A stretch of DNA of 30,826 bases, from positions 1 to 30,826 of the IMG/VR virus record IMGVR_UViG_3300004369_000086; one strand, 5' to 3'. Below are positions 2,288-27,433 of the stretch, piece after piece. Both the position numbers and the translations under genes were made by a program. Position 1 is the stretch's first letter. Every line of letters starts with the position of its first letter. The stretch comes from a virus. The notes below the pieces were generated by a model that ran no database searches, was not told the origin of the DNA, and saw nothing but the letters and a program-made list of their open reading frames with translations.

Positions 2288-2306
2288 TAAGAGAAGTATG
2301 TTTAAC

Positions 2307-2314
2307 AAAAGGAG
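2307..2314 (+). promoter_or_regulatory. Strong Shine-Dalgarno AAAAGGAG
   Basis: AAAAGGAG is followed by an 8-base spacer and the ATG at 2323, which fixes the start of the secreted lytic protein. The element is strong for a phage whose inferred host phylum uses Shine-Dalgarno pairing sparingly. Confidence 0.75.
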
Positions 2315-2322
2315 TAATCCGT

Positions 2323-2919: not shown

Positions 2920-2924
2920 AAGTT

Positions 2925-3200: not shown

Positions 3201-3201
3201 T

Positions 3202-5698: not shown

Positions 5699-5710
5699 TA
5701 TATTTATATT
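5699..5710 (+). promoter_or_regulatory. Putative late promoter, TATATTTATATT
   Basis: Contains the invariant decamer ATATTTATAT found at seven gene starts in this window. It lies 26 bases upstream of the ATG at 5725, followed by AAAAAGG. No conserved -33 element is visible, as in T4 late promoters. Confidence 0.6.
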
Positions 5711-5724
5711 AAAAAGGAATTATT

Positions 5725-6099
5725 ATGAATGAACAATTATTCAAAGTAAAGATTGTTCAAATAATAGCAATCCTATTATTTTCTCTGTGTACCATTCCAC
5801 TCTTAGGACAAGAATCCAAAGTTATTACACAGATAGATGACAATCTTTACGAGTATAGAGCTTACAACGAAGATGGTTCTATACACCAAAAAGGAACATA
5901 CATCGGAACAGAAGATGGCAAATTATTAGTCCACTCTTATTGGAGTGATGATGTAGGAACAAAGGCGTTGTATAACAAAGGTCAGTTAGTGTGGATTAAA
6001 CCTAAAGGACATCCTCGTTATACTTATGAACAGATAGAGTATCACAGAATGAAAGCAGAAATTGAAAGACTAAGGTCAATAGTGGCTCTAAATGATTAA
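5725..6099 (+). CDS. Secreted protein with YwqK/MORN-like region, 124 aa
   Basis: A 124-residue protein with a signal peptide (Lys8-Lys10, then the hydrophobic VQIIAILLFSLCTIPLLG). A GQ pair precedes the mature part, a common cleavage context in Bacteroidota. The mature part is beta-rich: YEYRAYNEDGSIHQKGTYI and GKLLVHSYWSDDVGTKALY resemble the repeated hairpins of YwqK/MORN-type proteins. A C-terminal helix (YTYEQIEYHRMKAEIERLRS) could oligomerise. It stands alone between a late-type promoter and a strong terminator. A role at the host envelope (for example superinfection exclusion) is plausible but not shown. Confidence 0.7.
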   Translation: MNEQLFKVKIVQIIAILLFSLCTIPLLGQESKVITQIDDNLYEYRAYNEDGSIHQKGTYIGTEDGKLLVHSYWSDDVGTKALYNKGQLVWIKPKGHPRYTYEQIEYHRMKAEIERLRSIVALND

Positions 6100-6133
6100 A
6101 ATGACTTGGTCGTAGAATAAAGTGGCTAAGAAC

Positions 6134-6163
6134 AAAAACCCAACTAAAAAAGTTGGGTTTTTT
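6134..6163 (+). terminator. Intrinsic terminator
   Basis: A perfect 12-bp stem (AAAAACCCAACT at 6134-6145 with AGTTGGGTTTTT at 6151-6162), loop AAAAA, and a T-rich 3' arm. It ends the single-gene unit of the 124-aa secreted protein. The A- and T-rich flanks mean it could also work on the opposite strand. Confidence 0.9.
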
Positions 6164-6179
6164 ATTTGACACCCAATAG

Positions 6180-6221
6180 AGTTCACACAATCGGTGTGAA
6201 AATAAAAAGTGAACTTTTTTT
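6180..6221 (+). terminator. Second terminator-like element with competing hairpins
   Basis: AGTTCAC (6180-6186) can pair with GTGAACT (6209-6215), followed by a run of seven T from 6215 to 6221. An alternative inner hairpin pairs TTCACAC (6182-6188) with GTGTGAA (6194-6200). The two share the 5' arm and so exclude each other, like an attenuator. It lies in the untranslated leader of the 76-aa membrane protein gene or the trailer of the preceding unit. Confidence 0.45.
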
Positions 6222-6296
6222 ATCATATATACAATAGTTATTTATTGGATATCCGCTGTTTTGGAATATGAAAAAGTTATTTTTCTTAAAATAAAC

Positions 6297-6303
6297 AAAG
6301 GAG
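6297..6303 (+). promoter_or_regulatory. Shine-Dalgarno AAAGGAG
   Basis: AAAGGAG with a 6-base spacer to the ATG at 6310 fixes the start of the 76-aa gene. No copy of the late decamer was found in the 90 bases before it, so the promoter of this gene is not identified. Confidence 0.7.
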
Positions 6304-6309
6304 AACAAT

Positions 6310-6540
6310 ATGGATTTTTTAAATAAAATCGGCTCATGGGCTGATGAATTAACAAAAATCGGTATTAGTATCATCGCTCTTGGAGTAGTACTTGAAGTAT
6401 TATTCAAAGGTGCAAACATTCCTTTCTGGCCAAATGTATCAGTAGTTGATAACATCATGGGTATATTGGGAAGTTTGAGTGCTGAAGGTCTATTAGGACT
6501 GGTTGGTGCTTTTGTACTTTACCACATTATTAAGAAGTAA
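6310..6540 (+). CDS. Small membrane protein, 76 aa (holin candidate)
   Basis: A 76-residue protein with an amphipathic N-terminus (MDFLNKIGSWADELTKI) and two hydrophobic segments (about 17-33, IGISIIALGVVLEVLF; about 58-73, LLGLVGAFVLYHII) separated by a loop, ending in KK. Two-helix topology, small size and a basic tail fit a class II-type holin, but such features are common to unrelated small membrane proteins. It stands alone between terminators at about 6221 and 6603 with a strong ribosome-binding site, suggesting high and independent expression. Not near the transglycosylase gene. Confidence 0.65.
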   Translation: MDFLNKIGSWADELTKIGISIIALGVVLEVLFKGANIPFWPNVSVVDNIMGILGSLSAEGLLGLVGAFVLYHIIKK

Positions 6541-6577
6541 ATTTTAAACTTAATAATTTCAGAACGCGTTAAGAACT

Positions 6578-6603
6578 AAACCTCTCTTCGGAGAGGTTTT
6601 TTT
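6578..6603 (+). terminator. Intrinsic terminator with UUCG tetraloop
   Basis: A perfect 9-bp stem (AAACCTCTC at 6578-6586 with GAGAGGTTT at 6591-6599) closed by the stable TTCG loop and followed by a T run. It ends the 76-aa gene, 37 bases after its stop, just before a late-type promoter. Confidence 0.93.
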
Positions 6604-6609
6604 GTTTAG

Positions 6610-6621
6610 TATATTTATATT
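6610..6621 (+). promoter_or_regulatory. Putative late promoter, TATATTTATATT
   Basis: Same decamer as the other late-type sites. It lies immediately after a terminator and 32 bases before the ATG at 6642, the first gene of the spike operon. A minimal frame ATG-GAA-AAA-TCA-TGA (6631-6645) overlaps that ATG as ATGA. Confidence 0.65.
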
Positions 6622-6641
6622 AAACATAATATGGAAAAATC

Positions 6642-7052
6642 ATGAGTACAGAATTTGAATTATTCCCAGGAAAAAATTTAAGTGGATTGTTCAAGGATAT
6701 CTATGATAACCAACAAAACAAGAAACAAAGAATCTCAGAATTAATTGCTGAGATGAAAAAAGTAATCAGACACGCAGGTGATATGGCAGTTATTGGACCT
6801 ATCATCAAAGATTTGGTAGATACCTCAGTAAAGAACGATGATGCCTTAATCAAGATGGCAGCAATTGCCCAACGAATCATTGGTGCTCAGCACAAAGCAG
6901 AAGGTGATAGTGGGTTCTTAACCGATGAAGAAAAAGAACAACTTCTAAAACAATTGGATGATACAATTGCAGAAGTACATGATGAAACAGAATCAAAAGT
7001 TGATGAACTTACAAACGAAATAGAAGAACTTAAACAAAAGGTAGGTAAGTAA
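6642..7052 (+). CDS. Helical phage protein, 136 aa, probable tail/virion component
   Basis: A 136-residue acidic protein, predicted nearly all helical. The centre (AGDMAVIGPIIKDLVDTSVKNDDALIKMAAIAQRIIG) looks like a packed helical bundle, and the C-terminal third (DDTIAEVHDETESKVDELTNEIEELKQKV) is a coiled coil. I do not recognise the family. It shares a late-type promoter with the spike gene and its stop overlaps that start (TAATG), so a structural or chaperone role in baseplate assembly is inferred from position. Confidence 0.7.
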   Translation: MSTEFELFPGKNLSGLFKDIYDNQQNKKQRISELIAEMKKVIRHAGDMAVIGPIIKDLVDTSVKNDDALIKMAAIAQRIIGAQHKAEGDSGFLTDEEKEQLLKQLDDTIAEVHDETESKVDELTNEIEELKQKVGK

Positions 7053-8293
7053 TGAGTAAAAGAACGTCATCATCTAATAGTAGTTTTTTTGGAAATAAAA
7101 ATGATAAGTTATTTGCAAGAAAATTTAAAACAGGTGTTGTTGTATTTGTTCACTTAGATGATTCTAAATTTGATACAATTACAATACCAGATGATATTTC
7201 AGATTCGGTATCTGATAAAGAATCTCTTTTAGGTTATGCAAAAATCGTAGAACGAGGAGATACCTCATATGATTTAGCTGATGTTCCTTTTTATCCACCA
7301 TATGATAGTGAAGAGGGGTTGCCAATTCTCGGAGAAACTGTTGAATTAATTCGATTAGGTGGAAACTATCATTACAAAAGAATATTTAACATTGATATTA
7401 ACAAAGGTAATGCCGTTGAAGATGCATTATTATTAGGATTACCAAGTGAGAACACAGAGAATAATTCATCAGAATATGGAGAAACCTCTGCAACAGGTAC
7501 ACCAAATGGAGGTGGCAATGAAGATAGAAAAAATAAACTTGGTGAATATTTTGAAGCAACTCAAATAAATCCTTTAAAATATTACGAAGGTGATAAAGTT
7601 ATACAATCACGATTTGGCCAATCAATTCGTTTTAGTGGATATAATAATGAAGAAAATGTATTAGCTCCAACTATTATAATTAGAAATAGGCAAAACGATA
7701 AATCAATTGAAGATTTAAAAGAATTTGAAATTACTGAAGAAGATGTAGTAGAAGATGGTTCTACTATTGCAATTACAAGTGGTGATTATTTGTTAGGATT
7801 CACACCTGGTACAGAGGATATCCCATTTGAAACCGAACCAGTATATCATGAACCACCCGAAGAATTAAAAGGTACTGACCAAATCTTAATTAATACTGGT
7901 AGACTTATTTTATCATCTAAAGATTCTGAGATGATATTTTATTCTAAAGGTCAGTATTCATTCATATCCGATGGTAAACTTACTATTGATAATGGCTTAG
8001 ATGGTGCTGATATGGATTTCAATGGAGATGTTAGGATTACTACTAATGATTTTAATACATACATACTTGGGGGTGCTGGTGAAATTTATTTAAATACCGA
8101 AGAAACAACGGAGCCATTAGTACGAGGTGAAACTTTAAAATCACTATTAGAACAGCTAATTGATGAAATAAATAAACAAATATTCATGACACCTGCAGGC
8201 CCAACATCACCTGGTCCAACAAACGCTCCAGCTTTTAATCAGATTAAATCAAAGTTAGATACATTTTTATCTACGTTAAACTATACGGAGTAA
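7052..8293 (+). CDS. Baseplate hub/spike protein, gp5-like OB-fold
   Basis: A 413-residue protein. Residues about 25-120 read as an OB-like beta barrel (KTGVVVFVHLDD..., then ILGETVELIRLGGNYHYKRIF). A low-complexity Asn/Gly/Glu linker (about 130-160) follows, then DKVIQSRFGQSIRFSGYN. Short beta repeats (GRLILSSKDSEMIFYSKG, QYSFISDGKLTIDN) resemble the beta-helix of membrane-piercing spikes. The C-terminus has a helix (ETLKSLLEQLIDEIN) and a Pro-rich strand. The order OB fold then beta helix fits gp5-type spikes of contractile tails; the lysozyme domain of T4 gp5 is absent. The start overlaps the preceding stop by one base. Confidence 0.65.
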   Translation: MSKRTSSSNSSFFGNKNDKLFARKFKTGVVVFVHLDDSKFDTITIPDDISDSVSDKESLLGYAKIVERGDTSYDLADVPFYPPYDSEEGLPILGETVELIRLGGNYHYKRIFNIDINKGNAVEDALLLGLPSENTENNSSEYGETSATGTPNGGGNEDRKNKLGEYFEATQINPLKYYEGDKVIQSRFGQSIRFSGYNNEENVLAPTIIIRNRQNDKSIEDLKEFEITEEDVVEDGSTIAITSGDYLLGFTPGTEDIPFETEPVYHEPPEELKGTDQILINTGRLILSSKDSEMIFYSKGQYSFISDGKLTIDNGLDGADMDFNGDVRITTNDFNTYILGGAGEIYLNTEETTEPLVRGETLKSLLEQLIDEINKQIFMTPAGPTSPGPTNAPAFNQIKSKLDTFLSTLNYTE

Positions 8294-8294
8294 A

Positions 8295-8858
8295 ATGTCT
8301 TTCCAAACGTTTAAAGCAAATATGTTAAACTATATGTCCAATCAAAATGGAATCGGGGCATATACTGATTTTGCACTTAAACTAACTACTGAATATGATT
8401 CTTGTATAAAACGAGGATATCAAACAATAAATCTAATTCCATTATTAAATGGTAACGTTCCTACGATGAATGCATTGGTTGCAACCGCATGTACTATTGC
8501 GTTAACAAAAAGAGAAGGAAAGCATACGTTTATAGATGATATTGGAAAGGCGGTACTTTCTTACTGGTCACCCGCTTTTCTTCAACCTGGTGCACCTCCT
8601 ATTACTCCTGCGGCTGGAGCTGTTGTAAATATAACAACCGTCAGTGCTCTGTGTATGAGTCCAGGTAGTTGGACACCTGTTGGGCCGTTAACACCAACTG
8701 ATAATACTTCTTTATTTTTGGATTTATTAATATCTTCTATGCAATCACACATAACTACTTTGGTATTTCAATATACTACTGTTTCACAATATCCAGGAGT
8801 ACCACCACCGATAGCACCTGGTGTTTTAATCGCAAATGGATATACTGTTCCTGGTTAA
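8295..8858 (+). CDS. Hypothetical tail-operon protein, 187 aa
   Basis: A 187-residue protein starting 1 base after the spike stop. The N-terminal half is helical (MSFQTFKANMLNYMSNQ, then LTTEYDSCIKRGYQT). The rest has Pro-rich loops (LQPGAPPITPAAGAV, PGVPPPIAPGVL) around hydrophobic helices (LFLDLLISSMQSHITTLVF). No known motif was recognised. Position between the spike and the next late promoter suggests a virion or assembly protein, possibly one that contacts the spike. Confidence 0.65.
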   Translation: MSFQTFKANMLNYMSNQNGIGAYTDFALKLTTEYDSCIKRGYQTINLIPLLNGNVPTMNALVATACTIALTKREGKHTFIDDIGKAVLSYWSPAFLQPGAPPITPAAGAVVNITTVSALCMSPGSWTPVGPLTPTDNTSLFLDLLISSMQSHITTLVFQYTTVSQYPGVPPPIAPGVLIANGYTVPG

Positions 8859-8880
8859 ACAACTATAAAAAACAAAAGAA

Positions 8881-8892
8881 TATATTTATATT
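8881..8892 (+). promoter_or_regulatory. Putative late promoter, TATATTTATATT
   Basis: Third copy of the late-type element, 35 bases before the ATG at 8916. It would drive the long baseplate operon from 8916 to about 16704. Confidence 0.65.
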
Positions 8893-8915
8893 AAGATAAA
8901 AGAAAATAAATTAAA

Positions 8916-9497
8916 ATGGATTCGAAACAATTAGTAAAAGTTATCAAAACTATTGTAGAAGCTGAAGTAGCTAAAAAGCATGAATCGTTCCTTACTAAAA
9001 CTTTTCCAAAGATTTTAGAAGAGGAGGTTAATCGTAGAGTCAAAACTCTATTGGAGGAGAAGGGAGGTGTTGCCGCTTCCTCCACGCATTTCGTGGAAGA
9101 AGAAGTAGACCCATTTCAAATGGCAGAACAGGTTTTACAAGAAGAAAGAGAACAACCTAAAAGACAGTTTACAAAAAATTCTGTTTTAAATGAGGTATTA
9201 AATAACACACAACCATTTACATCTGCACAAAGAAAAGGTGGTATGGAACAAAAATCTGTATTAGATAAATTCCAACAACCTGTAAATGAAAGTATGGATA
9301 AAACTGTAACATTTAACTCTCAAGGTGCACAAGGTGGTACTGATATGATGAGAGCTCAGATGGCACAGAAAATGGGTTATGGTAGTATGACAAAAGGACC
9401 AAGTAAAGCAGGACTTGGTGTTCAAACAGGATTGCCCGGTTTAGATAGAATTCTAAATAGAGATAATTCTGAACTTGTTAAAAAGTTTAAAAGATAA
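8916..9497 (+). CDS. Coiled-coil structural protein, 193 aa
   Basis: A 193-residue protein with a long charged N-terminal helix (residues 1-50, VKVIKTIVEAEVAKKHESF to RVKTLLEEK). A Gln/Gly/Met-rich, low-complexity remainder includes MMRAQMAQKMGYGSMTKGPSK. The C-terminus is basic (ELVKKFKR). No family recognised. It opens the gp25-gp6 operon, so a baseplate or assembly role is likely. An internal 11-bp inverted repeat with one mismatch (9076-9086 with 9092-9102) lies in the coding sequence. Confidence 0.65.
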   Translation: MDSKQLVKVIKTIVEAEVAKKHESFLTKTFPKILEEEVNRRVKTLLEEKGGVAASSTHFVEEEVDPFQMAEQVLQEEREQPKRQFTKNSVLNEVLNNTQPFTSAQRKGGMEQKSVLDKFQQPVNESMDKTVTFNSQGAQGGTDMMRAQMAQKMGYGSMTKGPSKAGLGVQTGLPGLDRILNRDNSELVKKFKR

Positions 9498-9571
9498 TGG
9501 TTGATGGATTGATTATAGTAGTAATGGGAATTGTTATTATAATGGCAGTGCTTCAACAATTTTTTAAATAG
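9497..9571 (+). CDS. 24-residue single-span membrane peptide
   Basis: A tiny frame starts at the TAATG junction with the preceding gene and ends 11 bases before the gp25 start. It reads MVDGLIIVVMGIVIIMAVLQ then QFFK, that is, one hydrophobic helix of about 17 residues with a basic end. Coupling to the upstream stop, a clean fit into the gap and the transmembrane composition argue for a real microprotein. It is short enough that chance cannot be excluded. Confidence 0.45.
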   Translation: MVDGLIIVVMGIVIIMAVLQQFFK

Positions 9572-9582
9572 GAAATAATAAT

Positions 9583-10017
9583 ATGGCATATGTTCTTGGT
9601 AGAAAAGTAGTAAAAGATGGAGAAGAATTTGATTCTTATGCATACGGTATTACCCTACCTTTAAAAAGAGGTGAGACTGGGTTCTTTGAACAAGCGTTCA
9701 CTTCAGTAGAACAGGCAAAAACAAATTTGAGAAACTTATTATTAACTGCAAAAGGTGAACGAGTAATGCAACCTAATTTTGGTTCTGGATTACATAGTGT
9801 TTTATTTGAACAGATAGATGATGAAAGATTTGAAGATTTGCTTAAAAAAACGATTTTAGATAGTGTATCGTTTTGGTTACCGTATATAGATATAAAAGAT
9901 ATTGAAGTTGAGATTACAAATGAGTTACGAGATAATAATCAAGCTAATTTGAATCTTACATTTACAGTTGGTTCAGAAATTGATTTACAAGAATTAACAT
10001 TTACAGTACAAGGATAA
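9583..10017 (+). CDS. Baseplate wedge protein, gp25-like
   Basis: A 144-residue protein of the GPW/gp25 family, the sheath-initiating wedge protein conserved in contractile tails. The diagnostic segment TNLRNLLLTAKGERVMQPNFGSGL is at about 47-70, followed by LHSVLFEQIDDE. The C-terminal strands (NLNLTFTVGSEID, LQELTFTVQG) close the fold. Length is typical (T4 gp25 is 132 residues). It precedes the gp6-like gene by 6 bases, the conserved gp25-gp6 order of T4-like phages. Confidence 0.9.
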   Translation: MAYVLGRKVVKDGEEFDSYAYGITLPLKRGETGFFEQAFTSVEQAKTNLRNLLLTAKGERVMQPNFGSGLHSVLFEQIDDERFEDLLKKTILDSVSFWLPYIDIKDIEVEITNELRDNNQANLNLTFTVGSEIDLQELTFTVQG

Positions 10018-10023
10018 TAAAAG

Positions 10024-12045
10024 ATGGCATTAAATTCAGCAACAACAAAAAGTAATAAGGGAAGGGATATAAAATATCTAAGTAAAGATTTCTCTAAGTT
10101 TAGAGCTAATTTACTTGAATACGCAAAAACATATTTCCCACAAACTTATTCTGATTTTAATGAAGCATCTCCAGGTATGATGTTTATTGAAATGGCATCC
10201 TATCTTGGAGATATACTTTCTTATTATACAGATGATTCTTTAAAAGAATCACTAATGATGTATGCGGAAGATAAACAAAATGTAATAGCTCTTGCAAATT
10301 ATTTAGGATATAAACCAAAAGTTACTTCACCTTCTATTGTTACACTAACTGTATATCAATTAGTACCCGCAATTGGTTCTGGTGCTGATATTAGACCTGA
10401 TTCTGAATACTACCTTAGAATTAAAGAAGGTATGGGTATAAATTCATCTAAAACAAATACCAAGTTTAGAACAACAGAATTGGTAGATTTTAATGATGAT
10501 ACTGATAGAGAAATTACTGTTTATAGTAGAACTCCATCTACAAACGAACCTACACAATATCTTATTAAAAAGAAAGTAAAGGCAATATCTGCTACATTAA
10601 AAACTATAAATGTAACATATACTACACCTAAGAAATTTTCAAAAATTGATATTGCTGATAAAAATGTAATTGATATTTACGATGTTCGAGATACAAATGG
10701 AAATAAATGGTATGAAGTTCCTTATCTTGCACAAGAGATGGTATATGTAGATTATGCTAACGATGCTCAAACGGATAAAGATTTATATCAATTTAAAGAT
10801 TCTGTTCCAAGTGTTTTAAAATTATTAAAAACTTCAAGAAGATTTGTTACTAAAAGAAATGATGATAATACAACAAGTATTATTTTTGGTGGTGGTAATT
10901 CAACCTCTTCGGATGAAACTCTTATACCAAACTTTAAAAATGTTGGATTGGGATTAAATTCATCAATAGATAGATTGGGAGCATCATTTGACCCATCTAA
11001 TTTTTTATCTACAAAATCGTATGGACAGGCCCCATCAAACACAACACTAACTGTGAGATATTTAGTTGGTGGTGGCGTTGAATCGAATGTATCCAAAGGT
11101 GAATTAACAACAATCGATAGAATTGAGTTTGATGATGATGTTAAAACTTTTGTAGGAGATGATTTAAAATTATACAATAGAATTAAAAGTTCAGTTGCGG
11201 TTGATAATGAAGAACCAGCAACAGGTGGTAGAGGTGCAGAAACGATTGAGGAAATAAGAGAAAATTCTCTCGCAATGTTTGGTTCTCAGAACAGAGCAGT
11301 AACTCGTAAAGATTACCAAGTAAGAGCTTTAGCATTACCACCAAAATATGGTGGTATCGCAAAGGCATATTGTGCACCAGATGGTGAATTAGATAACAAT
11401 TCCCCATCATCTATACTTAATAACCCAGAGTCATTAGAAGAGTTTGCAGGATTGGTACAATCTCTTAAAGAAAGTAATTCAACTGAGCAGGAAATTAAAG
11501 ATGAAATAAAAAGATTTTTAGGTGGTAAGAAAAACAATCCTGGTGAAAAGAATAATCCGTTTGCAATAAATCTATATGTACTTGGATATAATTCTAACAA
11601 AAATCTATCAACACTTAATAGAGCTGTTAAAGAAAACTTAAAAACTTATATTAGTGAATTTAGAATGCTAACCGATGGTGTAAATATTATCGATGGTTTT
11701 GTTATTAATATTGGAGTGGATTTTGAAATAAGAACATATGGAGGATATAATAAAAGAGAAGTTCTTGCAAAATGTATATCTGAATTGAAAGAATATTTTA
11801 ATATTGATAATTGGACATTTAATATGCCTATTAATATTTCTGAAGTTGAACTAACAATTGCTGGTGTAGAGGGTGTACAATCAGTACCGAAATGCGAAAT
11901 TACAAATAAATGTTTAGGTAATTATTCTGTACATTCATATAATATATCAGATGCAACAAAAGGGAAAATGGTATATCCATCTTTAGACCCATCGGTCTTT
12001 GAGGTTAAATTTCCTAATAAAGATATAAAAGGGAGAGTTCTATAA
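10024..12045 (+). CDS. Baseplate wedge protein, gp6/J-like
   Basis: A 673-residue protein close in length to T4 gp6 (660). The N-terminus has the hallmark YLSKDFSKFRANLLEYAKTYFP, then FNEASPGMMFIEMASYLGDILSYYTDD, the region that positions wedge gp6/J-type proteins. The central part contains ENSLAMFGSQNRAVTRKDYQVRALALPPKYGG, as in baseplate J proteins. The C-terminus includes INIGVDFEIRTYGGYNKREV. It forms the inner wedge ring of the baseplate. Its stop and the next ATG share one base (TAATG). Confidence 0.88.
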   Translation: MALNSATTKSNKGRDIKYLSKDFSKFRANLLEYAKTYFPQTYSDFNEASPGMMFIEMASYLGDILSYYTDDSLKESLMMYAEDKQNVIALANYLGYKPKVTSPSIVTLTVYQLVPAIGSGADIRPDSEYYLRIKEGMGINSSKTNTKFRTTELVDFNDDTDREITVYSRTPSTNEPTQYLIKKKVKAISATLKTINVTYTTPKKFSKIDIADKNVIDIYDVRDTNGNKWYEVPYLAQEMVYVDYANDAQTDKDLYQFKDSVPSVLKLLKTSRRFVTKRNDDNTTSIIFGGGNSTSSDETLIPNFKNVGLGLNSSIDRLGASFDPSNFLSTKSYGQAPSNTTLTVRYLVGGGVESNVSKGELTTIDRIEFDDDVKTFVGDDLKLYNRIKSSVAVDNEEPATGGRGAETIEEIRENSLAMFGSQNRAVTRKDYQVRALALPPKYGGIAKAYCAPDGELDNNSPSSILNNPESLEEFAGLVQSLKESNSTEQEIKDEIKRFLGGKKNNPGEKNNPFAINLYVLGYNSNKNLSTLNRAVKENLKTYISEFRMLTDGVNIIDGFVINIGVDFEIRTYGGYNKREVLAKCISELKEYFNIDNWTFNMPINISEVELTIAGVEGVQSVPKCEITNKCLGNYSVHSYNISDATKGKMVYPSLDPSVFEVKFPNKDIKGRVL

Positions 12046-13103
12046 TGTATTACTTTGTAACAGCATCTAAAGATGCAACGATTTACTTACAACAACCAAC
12101 TCAGAACACTGGGTTAGATGAAGTATTAGAAGTTTCCAAAACTTATTATGGGAATCTTAAAGATACTGCTAGAACTTTAATTAAGTTTGAAACAACTAAT
12201 CTTTCATCATCTATCGCTAGTGGTGATGTAACAATGAGTTCTGCTGAACTACTTTTAAAAGAAGTAGAATCATCTGAAATTCCTGTTGATTATACAATCT
12301 ATGCTTATCCTGTTTCTCAATCTTGGGATATGGGAATTGGAACTCGTTTCGATGATATTACAACAGATGGTGTTTCTTGGAACAAAAGAACTACAAATAC
12401 AGATTGGCTGATTGCAGATTATGCTACAGGTACAACAGGCTCTTTTAATGGAAAGGGAGGAACTTGGTACACTGGTTCAGCTTCATCTCAAAATTTTTCA
12501 TATGAATCTTCTGATATTGAAATGAATGTAATTACTTCTCTAAACTCATGGATAAGTGGTTCTATTCCAAATGAAGGATTTATTATAAAACATGATTCGG
12601 TTTTAGAAAACGATACTGAAGATTATGGACAAATAAAGTTTTTCTCGAAAGAAACAAATACAATATACCAGCCTAAAATACGAATTGGTTGGGACGATTC
12701 TTCTTTCTCAACTGGCTCATTAACAGAACTTACCGCTGATGATATTCATGTAACCTTCAAAAGATTAAAGACCAGATACAAGCGTGGAAGTAAACCTGAA
12801 ATCAGAGTTTTTGGTAGAGAGAAATACCCTCTCAAAACATATACCAACCGATATTCTTATACTGATGTAAAATATTTACCATCTACTACTTATTATCAAG
12901 TAAAGGATGCTATTACAGAAGAAGTAATAATTCCATTTGGAGATTATACAAAAGTATCTTGTGATTCAAATGGAAACTACTTTAAACTCAATTTAACAAA
13001 TTGGGAAATTAACAGAGATTATTATATTGAAATTAAAGTTGATAGAAGTGGTATAATTGAATACTTTGAAGATAGGGATTTAACTTTTACCGTAGAGAAT
13101 TAA
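12045..13103 (+). CDS. Baseplate-associated protein with DNRLRE-like domain
   Basis: A 352-residue beta-rich protein. Residues 1-195 resemble the DNRLRE/disaggregatase-type carbohydrate-binding sandwich. They include SKDATIYLQQPTQNTGLDEVLEV, TARTLIKFE, SAELLLKEVE, VDYTIYAYPVSQSWDMGIGTR, VSWNKR and GFIIKHD. The C-terminal part (about 240-352) is a second beta domain with VTFKRLKTRYKRGSKPEIRVFGREKYP, resembling extracellular Ig-like modules. There is no signal peptide, as expected for a virion protein. Position directly after gp6 is that of the gp7/gp8 wedge genes in T4. A baseplate role with possible glycan contact is inferred. Confidence 0.6.
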   Translation: MYYFVTASKDATIYLQQPTQNTGLDEVLEVSKTYYGNLKDTARTLIKFETTNLSSSIASGDVTMSSAELLLKEVESSEIPVDYTIYAYPVSQSWDMGIGTRFDDITTDGVSWNKRTTNTDWLIADYATGTTGSFNGKGGTWYTGSASSQNFSYESSDIEMNVITSLNSWISGSIPNEGFIIKHDSVLENDTEDYGQIKFFSKETNTIYQPKIRIGWDDSSFSTGSLTELTADDIHVTFKRLKTRYKRGSKPEIRVFGREKYPLKTYTNRYSYTDVKYLPSTTYYQVKDAITEEVIIPFGDYTKVSCDSNGNYFKLNLTNWEINRDYYIEIKVDRSGIIEYFEDRDLTFTVEN

Positions 13104-13104
13104 A

Positions 13105-14421
13105 ATGGGATTAAAAGATAGATTTAGAATTGATGAACTTGTAAAAAAAGGTTCGGCTGCTATTCCACGAGATAAAGCTGGTGGTATTGTTGTGCGAAGA
13201 TTACAAGGTAAACAAATTCCCCCATCATTACCTCCAAGAGATGCAGAAGAATTTTTTAGAAGAAAAAGAAAAAATATACCTACTCCGATAAAAAAACCGA
13301 TTCCATTCAAACCATATGGTCAGGAACCTATTACTAAAAAAACAGTTTCACCAAGATATAAACATGAACTACCTCCGATAAAGGATGAAGATGTATTAAA
13401 CATTAACCAAAATTCTTTTGCGGGTGAAACTTCTGGATTTTTAGAAAAACCTATCTACAACGAAGAAGAACTTAAAAAGGCAGTAGATGTAAAAGTTGAT
13501 GAATTAATCAAACCAAAAAAACAAAAAAAAGGTGATTTCATACCAAAGCCAAGGTTTGATAGATTACAAGAAAGGTTTGATTCTGGTTCTCTACAAATAC
13601 AAGATTTATCAGTTAAATTAGCAAATGAACAAAGTATAGTACAAACCCAAGAAGGTGAGATAAATGGATTAATAACTCAGATAGATTCTTTACAAGCTCA
13701 AGTAGATGCAAAACAAGCAGAGTTAGATACACTCTTAGTTAGGTTTAATCAATTACTTGAGGATTATCAAAATTCGATAATACGAGGAACGAAAGAAGGT
13801 ATTGAGAGAGTTTCTTTAACTGCTCAAGTTAGAGGATTACAGGCTCAAAAAGAAACCCTTCAGGCTCAGTTAACTGCTCAACAGGATATTGTACAATCCT
13901 TACAACAACAGGCAGAAATACAACAACAAGTTACTGAAGCTCAAGCTGAAGCTGCTGAACAAAGATTGGAACAGGCAAAGAAAACTAATTTATTAGATAT
14001 TGTTGGAGACAGACCTCAATATGAAGTTAAAGGAAATATAGCTTGGGCATCTAAGGCGAGTAATAAAAATATCAAACCACAATGGCCTGTTTATTGGGAC
14101 GATAGAAAGAAAGACCCAAAGGGAATTTTATCTGGTATGGTATTTGATTTCTTTAATATTGGAGATGAAAGTGTAACCTTAAATGTTACTGAAGAGGTTC
14201 TTAAAACAGGAAAGTGGTTAACTGGTGTTCCGAGTTCATTGACCATACCAAAGAGTCCAGATGCTGGTTCAACCCCTGGACAAAAAAGTATAACATTGGG
14301 AAGAGGTAGTACTGGTAAGGGAACGTATGAAACTTTAATTAAATTTAAAAATCCAAATACAGGTGAAGAATTAAAAATAAAAACTCATTACTGGCAGGCA
14401 AGAAGTAGAAGAAAAACCTAA
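13105..14421 (+). CDS. Coiled-coil virion protein, 438 aa
   Basis: A 438-residue protein. The N-terminus (1-110) is basic and Pro-rich (RRKRKNIPTPIKKPIPFKPYG). Residues about 145-295 form a long coiled coil rich in Gln/Ala/Leu heptads (LQAQVDAKQAELDTLLVRF, LQAQKETLQAQLTAQQ). The C-terminal 130 residues look like a beta sandwich (GILSGMVFDFFNIGDESVTLNV, TYETLIKFKNPNTGEELKIK), resembling NPCBM/Ig-like modules. A rod with a terminal domain suggests a fibre or spacer on the baseplate. No name can be given. Confidence 0.65.
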   Translation: MGLKDRFRIDELVKKGSAAIPRDKAGGIVVRRLQGKQIPPSLPPRDAEEFFRRKRKNIPTPIKKPIPFKPYGQEPITKKTVSPRYKHELPPIKDEDVLNINQNSFAGETSGFLEKPIYNEEELKKAVDVKVDELIKPKKQKKGDFIPKPRFDRLQERFDSGSLQIQDLSVKLANEQSIVQTQEGEINGLITQIDSLQAQVDAKQAELDTLLVRFNQLLEDYQNSIIRGTKEGIERVSLTAQVRGLQAQKETLQAQLTAQQDIVQSLQQQAEIQQQVTEAQAEAAEQRLEQAKKTNLLDIVGDRPQYEVKGNIAWASKASNKNIKPQWPVYWDDRKKDPKGILSGMVFDFFNIGDESVTLNVTEEVLKTGKWLTGVPSSLTIPKSPDAGSTPGQKSITLGRGSTGKGTYETLIKFKNPNTGEELKIKTHYWQARSRRKT

Positions 14422-14427
14422 TAGATT

Positions 14428-16704: not shown

Positions 16705-16705
16705 A

Positions 16706-16717
16706 AATATTTATATA
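16706..16717 (+). promoter_or_regulatory. Putative late promoter, AATATTTATATA
   Basis: Contains the invariant ATATTTATAT decamer (16707-16716), directly after the 758-aa gene stop and 29 bases before the ATG of the 1855-aa gene. Confidence 0.6.
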
Positions 16718-16735
16718 GGTAACTTAGGATACTAA

Positions 16736-19700
16736 ATGGCAAGAAACAGAAACATATTTGACCGAGATTTGGGAGATTTCGATTCCGGGAGAGATGACCT
16801 ACAATATGGTGAAGAATGGAATGGATTTCGCAGTTCTACTGAGGTGCTGTTAGACCCAATCGGCCGAGGTGGTGGAGGTGGAGGCCGAGGTGGTAGTAGT
16901 ACACCTATTATCGGTGGATGTACTGACCCTAAAGCAAAAAATTACAATGCAAGGGCAACTAAAGATAATGGTACTTGTTTATACTTCGAACCAATAGAAG
17001 AACCTATTATAAAAGTTGTACCTGGTTGTACTGACCGAACTGCTCTTAATTATAATCCAAAGGCTACCTTTAATAATGGTACTTGTAGATATCGAACAGT
17101 AGAACCTATCAGTACTTATAACAATTACAACGCACCTGTACGAGTAACGGTAACTTCTAATAATGGAGCTGCTACTGTTTTTGTAAATGGAGAATCTACT
17201 TCATTATCAACTACTCATGTGTTAGAGTTTACTGAAAAAGAACTATTAACTCCAAAATTAATAACAGTAAAAAAATCTGGATATACTTCAAAAGATGAAT
17301 ATAAAATATCTGCTTATAAAAAATCATACGAAGTACCAGTAAAAAAACTTCCTATAATATCAGTACCAGATAGACCAACACTACCACCACGTCCATTTAT
17401 TGGAGATGGTATTCGAGAATTTAATGATGACCTTGGTAACAAACAATTTTTTGGTGGTACTGGCTTTGGTGAGTTTAATACTGATGTATTTAGAGGTGGT
17501 GCATTTGAAGGAAATATAAATCCAATAAGAACATCTGGTGGACTTGGTCGTGGGTTTAATAACTTGAATCTTCGATTTGATGAAATTACTCCTCAACGAG
17601 TATCACGAGATTTAAATCCAACCAGACTTACAGTAGCTCCTCTTACTAAAATAGTAAATAATTACTATGAAATTCTTGTTGAAAAAAAGGTAAATGGTAG
17701 ATGGGTACAACAAAATATTCTGAAACCTGGGGAGATTACAAATTCGTTATTTCTTAAAAATAGAGTAGTAACAATTAATACTCCGTTTTCATTAAAGCAA
17801 GATTCTATTATCAAAGATGATGAGGATGATGTTGTAATTGATAATGGTGGTGGTGATGTTCAAAATGAAAGAAGAACTACAAAATATTCTGTAAGAATTA
17901 TTGCTGATGTTCCAAATGATGAAACCATACAATATAGAACAAACTATGGTCAACTTGGATATGTACTTGATGAAGATGATTATGTAGAATTTACCTTTAC
18001 ACAAACTGAAGGACAGGACTCTCCTTTTATAGAATTTTTTGGACAAGGTATTTCAGAATATACACATAAGGCAACATATGAGTTTAAGAATGGTACTAAT
18101 CAAAGAACTGCAAGACAAATAGATTCAAAATTTGAGTTATTACCTGGTGCAAATAATTTTAAAGTTACAGTTGCTAAATCTATATCAGTACAGGATTCAC
18201 CAAGTACACCTTTATTAAATGTAAATCAGAATTCTGTAATCTTTAATACCGCACAAGATAATAATGTAACTAAGATAAGTTATACGTCATCAAATGCGGA
18301 AGAAGTAATTTATACACTTGGAAAAGTAAAAAAATCCATTTCACCAAATGGAACTATTAAACTTACTAAGAATGATTTTACAAATGGTTTAGGAAGATAT
18401 ACACTTTACTTACAACCAGTATCTGCTAGAGGTGGTAGTGGTGATATTCAAAAAGTAGTAATAACAGTAGAAAGTAAAGCTTACTTACCTGGACCAGATA
18501 TTACTACGATTAATTACCCACAAAATATTCAAGGTGCAGATTTTAAAGGAACTGATGTAGATTTTCAAGTTAGTTGGCAATCTATTAATACAAACTATAT
18601 TAGAATTTATGTTGGTAAATACTCCAATGATTATAATTTAGGACAATTTCCTGCGATTGGCACTACTTCATTTAATGTTGGTAGCTTAATTAGAAAAGGT
18701 GGAAACCAGATATTTTCAAATAGAGATGTAAGTCAAATTACATTACTATTAGTTCCATTCAATGAAGAGGGTGATGAATTAACAGAAGGTAAGGTTGAAG
18801 AAATTAATATTACCTTTGATAAAGGAGATTTAACATTAAGAAGAGCAGAAGTAGTTTCGGATATTAAATCTGCATTCTCTCGTCAATTTAATGAATCTAC
18901 ATTTAATGAATATATATCACCTTTCTTAACACACTATTTACATCTTGGTGATGGTGATAATAAATTAATTGCTACTTGGGGAATTGATGAAGATACTTTA
19001 TCTGAGTTTGAAATCGATGAAACTACCAATAGACAAAAATTAATAAAAAAAGAAAAAGCGTTAGTATTAAAGTTATACGAACCTCTTCCAAGAAATATTG
19101 GTACAAATGATACTATTTGGATTTCTAAAATTCAATCGATACCACTAATAGACCAAATTACAATATTAGATGATATTGTAAATGCTTGTACTCCACTTAC
19201 ACCAAATTTTAATTTAGAAGTAAATGATGATGTTGGGTATCAAATATTAGATGATTTAATAGCAAGTGGTTCTACTTCATCTACTGAAGTTGTTAATCAA
19301 TTTATATCATCAAGCAACTTTTCTTTAGAAAATCTTAACATTAATTTCGTAACACAATCTACAATAGAATCTGGTTCGATATTAATATCTGCAGGAGATG
19401 AAGATTATAATTGGAAAGATTTTATAAAATATTCATCAGCCGCGGAACGAGTAGAAAATTTTTACTATAAAGTTAAATTAATAGAATCATACGAAGGTCA
19501 ATACGAACTTCTTACTTCAGGTAGTGCAGGTTCAAATTGGACAGGTTCGTTGGCAGTTGTAAATGATGCTAATAAAAAACTTGAAAAAATTAATGATGTT
19601 AAAAAAGGTTTTGATGCATTTGAAAAATTCTTATACACCTCATCATCTATTGGTGGGTTAACATATCCTGGAGCGGGACAAACAGAATTATCATCATCAA

Positions 19701-22303: not shown

Positions 22304-22332
22304 TGGTTATGTAATTAATTTTACAAAATACT

Positions 22333-22343
22333 TATATTTATAT
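22333..22343 (+). promoter_or_regulatory. Putative late promoter, TATATTTATAT
   Basis: Contains the same decamer (22334-22343), 39 bases before the ATG at 22372, in the 68-base gap after the giant tail gene. An AAGGAA ribosome-binding site lies between. Confidence 0.65.
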
Positions 22344-22371
22344 ATTGAACAATAACAAGGAATTTTAAATT

Positions 22372-22998
22372 ATGGCTTATTTAGATAATACGGAAATCAC
22401 AGTAGATGCGATTCTCACTAAGAAGGGTAGAGAGAAGTTAGCAGCTGGGGATGGTTTAAACATCACAAAGTTCGCTTTAGGTGATGATGAAATTGATTAC
22501 ACCCTTTACGAACCAGCACATCCAAAAGGAAGTGCTTATTATGATGCAGCAATTCGTGCGATTCCAATTACGGAAGCATCACCAGATGAAACTCAAGTAT
22601 TAAGATACAAATTAGTTACCTTACCTAAAGGTACTACTAAGATTCCTAAAGTTGAGTTCGGTATCCCTTCAATATCAGTAAATCAAAATTCTGGTCAAGT
22701 AACTCTTTCACCAACAACTTCACCAAGTGGAAATACACAAAGTGGATATACTGTAATTCTTGCTAACAAAAATGCAGGTTCAGTAGTTGGTAGTGGTTTA
22801 GCCGCTGGAACAGTAGCACCATCATTCTTAGGAGATGAGATTACAGCAACAGCAGCTATTGAAACTGGATTACAATTTACTTTTATTCCAAACCCAAACA
22901 TTACTCAAACAATTAGAACAACGATTACGGTGTATGGTAACGAAACTGGTGGTTCACAGTCAATACCAGTAACAGTAACATATGTACAACCAACATAA
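22372..22998 (+). CDS. Virion structural protein, 208 aa
   Basis: A 208-residue protein. The N-terminus AYLDNTEITVDAILTKKGREKLAAGDGLNITKFALGDDEIDY is a conserved module of marine T4-like phage tail proteins. The C-terminal half is an Ig-like beta sandwich (ISVNQNSGQVTLSPTTS, RTTITVYGNETGGSQSIPVTVTY). It resembles a decoration or tail-fibre adaptor with an exchangeable Ig domain. It shares a unit with the 409-aa gene and ends before a CGGAGAA ribosome-binding site. Confidence 0.7.
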   Translation: MAYLDNTEITVDAILTKKGREKLAAGDGLNITKFALGDDEIDYTLYEPAHPKGSAYYDAAIRAIPITEASPDETQVLRYKLVTLPKGTTKIPKVEFGIPSISVNQNSGQVTLSPTTSPSGNTQSGYTVILANKNAGSVVGSGLAAGTVAPSFLGDEITATAAIETGLQFTFIPNPNITQTIRTTITVYGNETGGSQSIPVTVTYVQPT

Positions 22999-23016
22999 AA
23001 CGGAGAATAATATAAA

Positions 23017-24246
23017 ATGGCACAAATAACAGGACAAGCGGGTTCTAATTTAACAAACGAATTATCAAACTATCTTGCTGATAATCAAGGTAATTTGACT
23101 TCTGAACAATTAGCATCCATCATCAACCAATATTTAAGTGGTGGTGATAAGTTAGGAGCATCTGGTGGACAGATTGCAAATGGTATCTATAAAAGATTTG
23201 GTGAATTTGACCAAATCACTGGTAAAGTTGAAGTAGTAACTACTGGTTTATGGAGTGGTGATACAGGAAGTTTAACTTCTTTTTATACATCATCTACTCA
23301 GGCAGTAGCTGCAAGTTCAGATTACTATCTTAATGTTTACAATGCTAACCCATCTACTGATTCATCAGCAGCTGTACAATATGCTGTTGCTTATGGACAT
23401 AGATTAGGTAGTGGTTCTGTATCTCTTTCAAACGATGATACATCTACTTTAGCATCTAAAGCAACTTATGCACAATATCGTTCAATCCTATTAGACCAAG
23501 ATGATAATAAATTTACTTTCTTTTCATCTTCAGCAGCAGGAACTCATGATTCAGAAGATATCTATGTAATCAATGTATCACGTGCCAGATACAAAGAAAA
23601 AATGGATGCTGGAAACTGGTCATTAAATCTTTCTGGTTCTAATGGTATCTCAACTCTTATAGATGATAGTGGTAAGAAATTTTCAGATACAGTTGGTAAG
23701 GCGGGTAGAATATTTAATGTAGGTAGTGGTTCACTTAATTTAGGAACTGAATCAGAAGCAACAGTTAATACATTAACTGCTTCAAATGGTCAAGGTTTAG
23801 GATTATTTTATCCAGATTTGGGTATGGTAGTTCTTAATCCAACTGCAGTTCATGATTTGATTGGAACATCAATAGATAGTGGTTCTAATCAAGGAGCTTC
23901 ACTTTATAGTGGTGTTGCTTATGAAGGTAAGAATCATTTCTTATTACATAATGCAATTGAAGGTGGTGGAGACTTTGAAGCAAGAAGAACTGAAAATGTT
24001 TCTACATCACACTACTTTGTAAGAGCAACAAATAGAGAATTTAACTTTTCAAACAACCCAACATTTGTAACAGGTAATGATGGTTCTTTTGCAGAATCAA
24101 CTTTTGAAAGAGACCCAAAAACTTTTATTACAACTATTGGATTATTAAACGATGCAAACGAAATGATTGCAGTAGCTAAAACTTCACAACCAATCGCTAA
24201 ATCATTTGATAAAGAAGTTCTAATAAAAGTTAAACTTGATTTTTAA
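23017..24246 (+). CDS. Tail structural protein, 409 aa
   Basis: A 409-residue Ser/Gly-rich protein. The helical N-terminus (about 1-65, LTSEQLASIINQYLSGGDKLGAS) leads to a body with YYLNVYNANPSTDSSAAVQYAVAYGHRLGSGS and VINVSRARYKEKMDAGNW. The end, VRATNREFNFSNNPTF and TTIGLLNDANEMIAVAKTSQPI, is shared with the 378-aa protein downstream, so both carry the same C-terminal domain. This domain pattern is typical of T4-like marine phage structural proteins. A strong terminator follows 20 bases after the stop. Confidence 0.7.
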   Translation: MAQITGQAGSNLTNELSNYLADNQGNLTSEQLASIINQYLSGGDKLGASGGQIANGIYKRFGEFDQITGKVEVVTTGLWSGDTGSLTSFYTSSTQAVAASSDYYLNVYNANPSTDSSAAVQYAVAYGHRLGSGSVSLSNDDTSTLASKATYAQYRSILLDQDDNKFTFFSSSAAGTHDSEDIYVINVSRARYKEKMDAGNWSLNLSGSNGISTLIDDSGKKFSDTVGKAGRIFNVGSGSLNLGTESEATVNTLTASNGQGLGLFYPDLGMVVLNPTAVHDLIGTSIDSGSNQGASLYSGVAYEGKNHFLLHNAIEGGGDFEARRTENVSTSHYFVRATNREFNFSNNPTFVTGNDGSFAESTFERDPKTFITTIGLLNDANEMIAVAKTSQPIAKSFDKEVLIKVKLDF

Positions 24247-24266
24247 AAAATTTAACCTATAAAAAC

Positions 24267-24298
24267 AACCCTCACCACTTAGGTGGGGGTTTTTTTTT
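24267..24298 (+). terminator. Intrinsic terminator
   Basis: A 10-bp stem with one G-T wobble (AACCCTCACC at 24267-24276 with GGTGGGGGTT at 24282-24291), loop ACTTA, then a nine-T run (24290-24298). It ends the unit of the 409-aa tail protein. A GTG inside its 3' arm is in frame with the next gene but is not a believable start. Confidence 0.92.
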
Positions 24299-24309
24299 GT
24301 TATAGAATT

Positions 24310-24894
24310 ATGGAAAAAAAATATTTACCATTTAACTTTAAATTTTTAGGAAATATAGATATTACAGAAGTAGTAGATAAGTTAAGTACATTTACTGAAG
24401 ATGATTGGTTAAGAGATGTTTCACGAAATTTAAGAGGTAGGGCCCACCAAAATACACATTCAATAGGTGTGTTATGGGATGGCGATTCTTTGGCAAATAA
24501 TTCAATTGCTGAAAAAAATGAATACAACTATAATAAAATAGATTTTGATAGTATTAAAAATACATTACTTTCCATATATAAAAAACATTATGGAGATGGT
24601 CACATACTAAGAGTACTTTTAGCTAGATTAAAACCAAACTCTATAATATTAGAACATGAAGATGCTGGGAAATCTTTACTTATATGTAATAGAACTCATA
24701 TTCCATTACAAACGAATGACGATATAATATTTTCTGTTGGACATGAGGAAAAGATATTAAAACCAGGGGAAATTTGGGAAATAAATAACGCAAAACTTCA
24801 TTCGGTAAAAAATAATAGTAATGAGTATAGGATACATCTTATTGTAGATTATTTAAAAAAGAATCTTGGAAATAACAGTAGTTTACTAAACTAA
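24310..24894 (+). CDS. Aspartyl/asparaginyl beta-hydroxylase family 2OG-Fe(II) oxygenase
   Basis: A 194-residue enzyme starting at ATG 24310; the in-frame GTG at 24283 lies in the terminator stem and is rejected. The double-stranded beta-helix core is clear: LRVLLARLKPNSIILEHEDAG with His116 and Asp118 as iron ligands, RTHIPL (Arg128, His130), LKPGEIWEINNAKLHSV with His164 as the distal ligand, and YRIHLIVDY with Arg174 for 2-oxoglutarate. Members hydroxylate Asp or Asn side chains or small peptides; the target is unknown. The gene sits between a terminator and the promoter of the next tail gene with no promoter of its own visible. It looks like an inserted cassette relying on read-through. 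Confidence 0.85.
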   Translation: MEKKYLPFNFKFLGNIDITEVVDKLSTFTEDDWLRDVSRNLRGRAHQNTHSIGVLWDGDSLANNSIAEKNEYNYNKIDFDSIKNTLLSIYKKHYGDGHILRVLLARLKPNSIILEHEDAGKSLLICNRTHIPLQTNDDIIFSVGHEEKILKPGEIWEINNAKLHSVKNNSNEYRIHLIVDYLKKNLGNNSSLLN

Positions 24895-24913
24895 GGTGGG
24901 TTTTCAACTTTTG

Positions 24914-24924
24914 TATATTTATAT
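24914..24924 (+). promoter_or_regulatory. Putative late promoter, TATATTTATAT
   Basis: Same decamer (24915-24924), 28 bases before the ATG at 24942, followed by the ribosome-binding site GAAGGAG (24925-24931). Confidence 0.68.
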
Positions 24925-24941
24925 GAAGGAGTATTAGATAT

Positions 24942-26078
24942 ATGTTAAAGACAATACCAAAATCAAGTGTAAGTAGGAGACGTTTTCCTGTATATAAACA
25001 ATGGAGTGTTAGTAATTCAGACTACCCCATTATATCAGCTTCTGCCGAAAGTGGTTTTTTTGATAGCTCTTCTTTTTCTTCTCAACAAGGAGTTTATATA
25101 CATCCATTGTATAAATCTTTAAGAGCAAAATACTATAATCAAAATGCAAATCCATTTACATTATTTGGTTCGGTTGATAATATAGCTAGATTGGATGTAG
25201 ATAGAAGGTATTCCAACACACTTAATATAATATCTATACCACAATCAAAATATGGTGAACAGATAAAACCAAACTCTGTTATTTTAAATGATACAGATAA
25301 TGATGTTTCATATACAGATAACGGAACAGGGAATCTTACATCTACCGTTCCTCTCTATACTCTGGTTAGTATAGATTTTGAAGATGAAACAATTGTAATC
25401 CAAGATAATGATTTTGAAGTATTTACGGGTACAATAACATCTTTTGATGTATTTAGTGGTATTGCTGTTTTAACGTTTGGTAGTGATACAGATTCAGTTC
25501 TTGTAGTTAAGATAGATTTAGAAAATTCGTTTATACAAACCGCAGACCCATTAGATTTTGATGGGTTGGATATAGATGAATTACAATATGGAAATGTTTT
25601 TTATGATGAAGGGTTAGTTGTTACGGTTGATACTCCTGCGTTTAGTTCATATAACTTAAATTTCAGAAGTACTCAAACTATATATGAAACCGAAGTTTTA
25701 ATTACAGCAAAAGCTGGAGAGTTTAACTATTCACAAAATCCATCAGCGGTTGAAGTAACACTAAGTGGTTCGTATGATTTTAATACAACTGCAGTTTACA
25801 ATGGAATTCCAGCTGGTACTAAAAAAATAAAAGAAGTATTAGATATAAAAAGAAAAGAATCTTTCGTGGGTTCGGTTAATAGTTCAATAAGTGGTTCTTG
25901 GGATGATTATTATAATTCATCATCAATAGACCCAACTGGTTCTTATTTATCAACATATGTAACTACAATAGGATTATATGATAATGCTGGAGATATGGTT
26001 GCTGTAGCAAAATTACCTACACCAATCAAGAATTTACCAGATTATGATTTAAACTTTATTGTACGTTTCGATACTTAA
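24942..26078 (+). CDS. Tail structural protein, 378 aa, paralogous C-terminus
   Basis: A 378-residue beta-rich protein. The N-terminus has SSSFSSQQGVYIHPLYKSLRAKYYNQNANPF, then LNIISIPQSKYGEQIKPNSVILND, a pattern seen in marine T4-like tail proteins. The middle contains repeated IDFEDETIVIQDNDFEVFTG-like strands. The last 110 residues match the 409-aa protein (EFNYSQNPSAVEVT and TTIGLYDNAGDMVAVAKLPTPI), so the two are paralogues by their C-terminal domain. It is a single gene under a late-type promoter. Role as tail or fibre component is inferred. Confidence 0.7.
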   Translation: MLKTIPKSSVSRRRFPVYKQWSVSNSDYPIISASAESGFFDSSSFSSQQGVYIHPLYKSLRAKYYNQNANPFTLFGSVDNIARLDVDRRYSNTLNIISIPQSKYGEQIKPNSVILNDTDNDVSYTDNGTGNLTSTVPLYTLVSIDFEDETIVIQDNDFEVFTGTITSFDVFSGIAVLTFGSDTDSVLVVKIDLENSFIQTADPLDFDGLDIDELQYGNVFYDEGLVVTVDTPAFSSYNLNFRSTQTIYETEVLITAKAGEFNYSQNPSAVEVTLSGSYDFNTTAVYNGIPAGTKKIKEVLDIKRKESFVGSVNSSISGSWDDYYNSSSIDPTGSYLSTYVTTIGLYDNAGDMVAVAKLPTPIKNLPDYDLNFIVRFDT

Positions 26079-26081
26079 TTC

Positions 26082-26092
26082 ATATTTATATT
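26082..26092 (+). promoter_or_regulatory. Putative late promoter, ATATTTATATT
   Basis: Contains the invariant decamer at 26082-26091, directly after the 378-aa gene stop and 30 bases before the ATG at 26112. Confidence 0.62.
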
Positions 26093-27325: not shown

Positions 27326-27347
27326 TGGAAATTTTTTCGTATATTTG
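27317..27347 (+). promoter_or_regulatory. Bacteroidota-type promoter P1 (TTG-N20-TATATTTG)
   Basis: TTG at 27317-27319 and TATATTTG at 27340-27347, separated by 20 bases, in the TTCGTATATTTGTAT context. It lies 106 bases before the primase start, giving a leader of about 100 bases. Confidence 0.72.
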
Positions 27348-27402: not shown

Positions 27403-27433
27403 TTGGATATATCAAATATTTTTCGTATATTTG
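27403..27433 (+). promoter_or_regulatory. Bacteroidota-type promoter P2 (TTG-N20-TATATTTG)
   Basis: TTG at 27403-27405 and TATATTTG at 27426-27433, again 20 bases apart and in the TTCGTATATTTGTAT context. It lies 20 bases before the primase ATG. Together with P1, 86 bases upstream, it forms a tandem pair. Confidence 0.75.

Follow-up and report, generated by a model that had tools for sequence, protein, structure and literature searches.

How does a T4-like phage of Bacteroidota tell the host RNA polymerase which of its genes to transcribe late? We addressed this question at IMG/VR virus record IMGVR_UViG_3300004369_000086, a 30.8-kb viral fragment (positions 1 to 30,826, "the window"), where the decamer ATATTTATAT, with core octamer TATTTATA, had been proposed as a late promoter from the sequence alone (hereafter, the original prediction). 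From comparative sequence evidence, the promoter class appears real and conserved, a form of T4 late promoter peculiar to Bacteroidota phages, for which a plausible sigma factor partner can be named. Our main reading, at a probability of roughly 0.78, is that the decamer serves as the -10-like element in phage-specific virion-gene promoters, read by the host core RNA polymerase together with a gp55-like sigma factor encoded at 3202-3954.

A direct count bore out the seven decamers of the original prediction. All are on the + strand, none is on the - strand, and all are intergenic, although intergenic DNA comprises 1,049 bases (3.4% of the window, 79% A+T). The core octamer occupies the same seven places of the + strand and no others. 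The sites are given below with the nucleotides (nt) from decamer start to ATG and, where available, the homologue in the cultured Flavobacterium phage vB_FspM_immuto_2-6A (NC_055915, "immuto").

5700-5709, + strand: putative late promoter motif ATATTTATAT (core TATTTATA at 5701-5708), 25 nt to the ATG at 5725
6611-6620, + strand: putative late promoter motif, 31 nt to the ATG at 6642; gene homologous to immuto gp117, site kept in many relatives
8882-8891, + strand: putative late promoter motif, 34 nt to the ATG at 8916; site kept in relatives
9583-12045, + strand: gp25-like and gp6-like baseplate wedge genes, within the block that the late motifs would serve
16707-16716, + strand: putative late promoter motif, 29 nt to the ATG at 16736; tail/fibre-like product of 1855 amino acids
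22334-22343, + strand: putative late promoter motif, 38 nt to the ATG at 22372; gene homologous to immuto gp107, site kept in relatives
24915-24924, + strand: putative late promoter motif, 27 nt to the ATG at 24942; gene homologous to immuto gp105
26082-26091, + strand: putative late promoter motif, 30 nt to the ATG at 26112; open reading frame (ORF) of 59 codons

In window order, the distances are 25, 31, 34, 29, 38, 27, and 30 nt; the regular spacing described earlier was right as a pattern, and its figures (26-39 bases) were off by one. Where the host -7 element has TTTG, all seven sites read TTTA. Downstream of 6611, 22334, and 24915 lie genes with counterparts in the baseplate/tail-fibre block of immuto. 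Together with the gp25-like and gp6-like genes, these three support the description "mostly structural genes" at the module level; most of the individual downstream genes carry no assigned function.

Chance arising from A/T richness was ruled out as the source of the seven decamers by two shuffle tests. Dinucleotide shuffles of the whole window gave a mean of 0.84 decamers (largest 4, 0/100 reaching 7), and shuffles of the intergenic bases alone gave a mean of 0.07 (largest 3, 0/20,000 reaching 7).

The decamer is also conserved in relatives. Using a gp6-like baseplate protein encoded at 10024-12045 as the query, we collected 80 IMG/VR loci and counted 78 of them, which amounted to 964 kb with 2.6% noncoding DNA under a crude ORF caller. 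The coding strand held 131 decamers and the opposite strand 0; 120 of the 131 were intergenic, and several of the remaining 11 reflect start-codon choice. The decamer recurs before orthologous genes across these loci, mostly 24-48 nt from the start codon. On whole contigs, the strand bias was 28:3 in G014 (IMGVR_UViG_3300012347_000377, 288,673 bp), 19:1 in G017, and 8:1 in immuto. Among intergenic decamers it ranked first (or tied) in the window, G017, G003, G018, and G021, and second in G014, after its one-base shift TATATTTATA; these five contigs are the relatives from the window clade that were covered over their full length. The + strand of G014 carried 26 intergenic decamers in 16.3 kb vs. 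2 coding ones in 272 kb, making it about 200-fold denser between genes; an equal density inside genes, which the original prediction had named as grounds for rejection, was not what we found. Immuto, with 38.8% identity in the baseplate wedge protein, shares the TATTTATA core before virion genes. As for G014 itself, sequence near base 27 is repeated near base 288,635, and this recurrence of the end sequence suggests a terminally repeated and probably complete genome.

At the level of gene modules, motif discovery by expectation maximization on 60-nt upstream regions, with no preset motif, recovered two promoter classes, with TATTTATA-type motifs before virion genes. We drew the module boundaries from the immuto annotation and homology. 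In immuto, it returned [A/C]TATTTATAAtAAA at 20/25 starts of the virion module and TTCnTATATTTAGG at 35/64 starts of other genes; in G014, the corresponding motifs were TATATTTATA (24/33 starts) and TTCGTATATTTGTA (51/113 starts). Gene starts thus divide into a host-type TTG-N20-TAnnTTTG class (non-virion) and a TATTTATA class without a -33 box (virion). In immuto, the core stands before terL, gp20, sheath, tube, tape measure, hub, and gp107; counted per gene, it precedes 17/58 virion vs. 8/150 other genes (P=9e-6). In G014, the motif precedes 15/70 virion vs. 22/320 other genes (P=6e-4), and the full host-type box 0/70 vs. 15/320. In G014, G017, and immuto, the sequence upstream of the core had little information along its whole length and showed no TTG, and the flanks did not approach the core in information content, which agrees with the earlier observation that no -33 element is conserved.

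The Bacteroidota primary promoter has the consensus -33 TTTG / -7 TAnnTTTG (PMC6847099). The late class shares with it an A/T-rich -7 box, but has neither the -33 element nor the TTTG. In the window, four host-type promoters, each with a -33 element, are present at TATATTTG sites, a set separate from the seven decamer sites:

416-446, + strand: host-type promoter TTG-N20-TATATTTG (box at 439), before the ORF at 451-927
2256-2287, + strand: host-type (Bacteroidota) promoter TTAGG-N19-TATATTTG (box at 2280), heading the gene run 2323, 2925, and 3202 (the sigma candidate)
27317-27347, + strand: host-type promoter TTGG-N19-TATATTTG (box at 27340), between the ORF at 26834-27325 and the primase gene
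27403-27433, + strand: host-type promoter TTTGG-N19-TATATTTG (box at 27426), before the primase gene at 27454-28395

The proposal of a distinct phage promoter class, virion-associated, lacking a -33 box, and set apart from the host-type promoters of the window, was therefore upheld.

Other repeated promoter-like sequences were seen along the way. Immuto carries a further class, AGTTGC-N-TATATTTAGGTATCAATAATTAAAACA, before small early-type genes at 22-76 kb, with 15 intergenic copies and 0 in virion modules. Microcystis phage Mel-JY01 (L297, PP395634) has repeated AGTTCTTGC-N20-TAnnTTTG promoters of Bacteroidota type (e.g., at 1806, 4211, 4890, and 8417), and TTG-N17-22-TAnnTTTG matches there number 12 forward vs. 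3 reverse. Its deposited host, Microcystis elabens, may be wrong, and a co-cultured Bacteroidota bacterium may be the real one.

The decamer could still be a variant host promoter, that is, a -7 TAnnTTTG element ending in TTTA and used by the host primary sigma, perhaps with a phage activator replacing the -33 box. In the window clade, a T usually precedes the decamer, giving TATATTTA(TAT), one change from TATATTTG, and it was from this likeness that the original prediction derived the motif by a last G-to-A change. The weak -33 motif of F. johnsoniae (PMC6847099) would fit such a promoter, while the nearly invariant G(-5) of its -7 elements (PMC6847099) would not, nor would the separation of the two classes by gene module. 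Immuto bears on the matter most directly. Its motif mostly extends as TATTTATAA, unlike TATTTATAT in the window; TATTTATA is fixed, the base before it (-11) is A or C, and the next base out (-12) carries 0.0 bits. Because the bases ahead of the immuto core are not TA, the invariant unit is TATTTATA, and the derivation from TATATTTG is not supported. The non-virion promoters of immuto read TTG-N-TATATTTAGG, also with TATATTTA in the class; they resemble a TTTA host-type promoter with an upstream TTG, which lends the variant some support, and for the same reason TTTA cannot mark late promoters in this phage. A host -7 element with one change is thus disfavored by both the immuto flanks and the TTTA of its non-virion class, and we consider the variant host promoter quite unlikely.

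Since immuto breaks the host -7 reading, the best alignment is with the T4 late octamer, TATAAATA, in which TT takes the place of the central AA. The two octamers are built on one palindromic frame, TATnnATA, and only their central AA/TT sets them apart, so that each resembles the reverse complement of the other. The T4 core on the opposite strand, previously entertained as a clue to orientation, is hence a near-palindrome effect. Orientation is fixed by the gene polarity (131:0) and by sites lying directly after intrinsic terminators, and the same two observations rule out minus-strand T4 late promoters. TATAAATA itself was not enriched on the coding strand, with 0 sites in the window and 5 intergenic + strand sites in G014 vs. 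38 for TATTTATA. One such terminator is found in the window:

6578-6599, + strand: intrinsic terminator closely preceding the motif at 6611, with a 9-bp stem, a TTCG loop, and a T-run

This terminator-then-motif order recurs in many relatives, and some motifs abut the T-run; the enrichment is modest, with P about 0.02-0.04 in three genomes, and does not reach significance in all genomes. A motif directly after a terminator would be on a new transcript, which favors a promoter over an RNA element that would affect translation or stability from within the 5' leader of virion mRNAs. The fixed range of distances at which the motif precedes the start codon (mostly 24-48 nt) would suit an RNA element, as would the fact that Bacteroidota initiate without a Shine-Dalgarno sequence and tune translation through other upstream features (PMC6847099). 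However, sites abutting a T-run would fall outside the upstream transcript, and host-type promoters fill the same distance range before the other gene class, so that the virion genes would otherwise be missing a promoter. An RNA element is therefore very improbable.

For the reader of the promoter, our candidate is the product of the following gene:

3202-3954, + strand: putative late sigma factor of 250 amino acids, with a gp55-like sigma region 2 (about residues 1-120) and a C-terminal helical domain (about 136-228)

This protein is a homologue of immuto gp118 (37% identity), with more than 150 relatives in IMG/VR. Immuto gp118 gives a weak match to the family of T4 gp55 (PHROG_234, E=0.008), and hhalign of a 36-sequence sigma profile against an 8-sequence gp55 profile was collinear over residues 1-104 (P=1.1e-4). 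The same 36-sequence profile also picks out a Rhodothermus phage RM378 protein (E=1e-8). The AlphaFold model of the full-length window protein had a predicted local distance difference test (pLDDT) score of 73 and a predicted template modeling (pTM) score of 0.42. In Foldseek, sigma factors were its main matches, including T4 gp55 in the open complex (7d7c_F, TM 0.58 on target), isolated sigma-2 domains matched at TM 0.64-0.67, and phage sigma factors predominated among the named matches in the viral structure library. This remote but consistent similarity, in sequence and in the predicted fold, suggests a distant gp55 relative with a sigma-2 domain. The phrog_234 and PF04542 profiles retrieved nothing in the IMG/VR contigs, and the sigma was reached only via immuto, hhalign, and folding. 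Databases list it as "hypothetical protein", and its identity as a sigma factor is likely new here.

The position of the sigma gene suggests a simple circuit. A host-type promoter precedes it in the window, as well as in G014 (promoter at 66262, sigma at 66950) and in immuto (promoter of the TATATTTAGG class at 76214, sigma at 78174), and the late motif is found within 1.5 kb upstream of it in only 1/31 loci. Because of this placement, the host holoenzyme would first make the sigma from a host-type promoter. Bound to the host core RNA polymerase, the sigma would then recognize TATTTATA and open the promoters of the virion block, with RNA expected to start about 5-10 nt downstream of the motif, late in infection.

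Several observations weigh against our reading. The window protein itself has no significant PHROGs, Pfam, or PDB sequence match, no PDB match in Foldseek reaches E 0.001, and the relation to sigma factors is a remote similarity with modest confidence in the full-length model (pTM 0.42). A strict host-type pattern is found within 1.5 kb upstream of the sigma gene in only 11/31 loci. The immuto major capsid gene lacks an obvious motif directly upstream, and more than half of the G014 sites lie outside virion modules. The virion association of the original prediction thus stands without being exclusive, and the class may also serve non-virion genes. Finally, TATTTATA is not enriched in Mel-JY01, LR756508, and RM378 (parts examined) in spite of their sigma homologues; motif and sigma family are thus not coextensive.

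This last point would also fit a real phage promoter class with another reader, such as an unrecognized sigma, a single-subunit RNA polymerase, or a DNA-binding activator; our search for a single-subunit polymerase ran without a positive control. On the other hand, no other sigma region 2 (Pfam PF04542) was found in any related contig and no multisubunit (beta-subunit) RNA polymerase gene in the relatives searched. The sigma candidate belongs to the same genomes and adjoins the virion block. Its family is single-copy in immuto and in four related contigs, with none in T4. We regard another reader as unlikely and retain the gp55-like sigma as the preferred candidate.

How close is this to the T4 late system? 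T4 late promoters lack a conserved -35 element; what they have is a single 8-bp TATA box, placed roughly one helical turn ahead of the start (PMC2988020). The phages studied here are alike in having an 8-bp A/T box with no -35/-33 element before virion genes, in a T4-like myovirus with a phage sigma-2-like factor in the same genome. They are unlike T4 in the core (TATTTATA instead of TATAAATA) and in host promoters of the Bacteroidota -33/-7 type. The sigma also differs, since T4 gp55 has 185 amino acids and lacks the C-terminal helical domain of the 250-residue window protein, which is near-undetectable by gp55 models. Late promoters have been predicted in silico for S-PM2, KVP40, 44RR, and Aeh1, T4-like phages of cyanobacteria, vibrios, and aeromonads (PMC2988020). 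These are alike in having late boxes before virion genes and gp55 homologues, but their boxes depart little or not at all from the T4 consensus (Aeh1 alters -13/-12), whereas here the central AA becomes TT.

Among the genomes searched, the co-activator gp33 (phrog_254) was found in T4 only, although a very diverged gp33 could escape. G014 has a T4-type (gp45-type) sliding clamp at 210523-211119 (PHROG_223, E=5e-16); on our own reading of the sequence, genes for a family-B-like polymerase and a loader lie close by. Pfam PF02916 missed this clamp, so the absence of a sliding clamp in G014 that it implied was wrong, and claims of absence call for caution. With PHROG_223, no T4-type clamp was matched in immuto or in the partial contigs. 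Immuto has PolA, a further difference from the window along with its motif continuation and its TTG-N-TATATTTAGG promoters; if the absence of the clamp is real, its late class works without a T4-type clamp. Membership in the T4 late system is thus partial: box type and sigma-2 are shared, consensus and gp33 are not, and the clamp is mixed.

The extra C-terminal part of the sigma is modeled with good confidence as a separate four-helix domain (pTM 0.70), with no fold match, no PDB sequence match, and no significant gp33 match. A possible though doubtful explanation is a single-chain late sigma that reads TATTTATA, in which region 2 is fused to a C-terminal domain replacing T4 gp33 in its beta-flap role, and which works without a clamp in immuto-type phages. 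The C-termini of the window clade (A1) have an acidic/aromatic tail ending near F[WY], absent from immuto, that could bind a clamp as the T4 gp55 tail does. No other protein shared this tail convincingly, and a search of C-termini for a common clamp-binding tail yielded nothing decisive.

Apart from the phage genes discussed, the window carries host-derived genes: ferrochelatase-like (126), nucleotidyltransferase (451), peptide deformylase (1145), and NolO-like carbamoyltransferase (3955) genes within 126-5658, and a sulfotransferase-like gene (26302) within 26302-27325.

In the open-access literature searched, we found no report of Flavobacterium phage late promoters or of the TATTTATA class. 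Our results map two transcription classes at the sequence level for abundant, almost unstudied aquatic T4-like phages of Bacteroidota with mostly unannotated genes; the baseplate-gene search gave at least 576 confirmed IMG/VR stretches. For late promoter recognition in T4 relatives, they suggest that the central bases of the box drifted while its frame was kept. If the single-chain model is true, these phages would supply a naturally occurring "fused late sigma", the lack of which is a question raised in the T4 literature (PMC2988020). They also offer a natural test case for two questions of the T4 field: is there a fused late sigma, and does late transcription need a T4-type clamp? Both can be put to the test in immuto, an isolated phage whose host is named.

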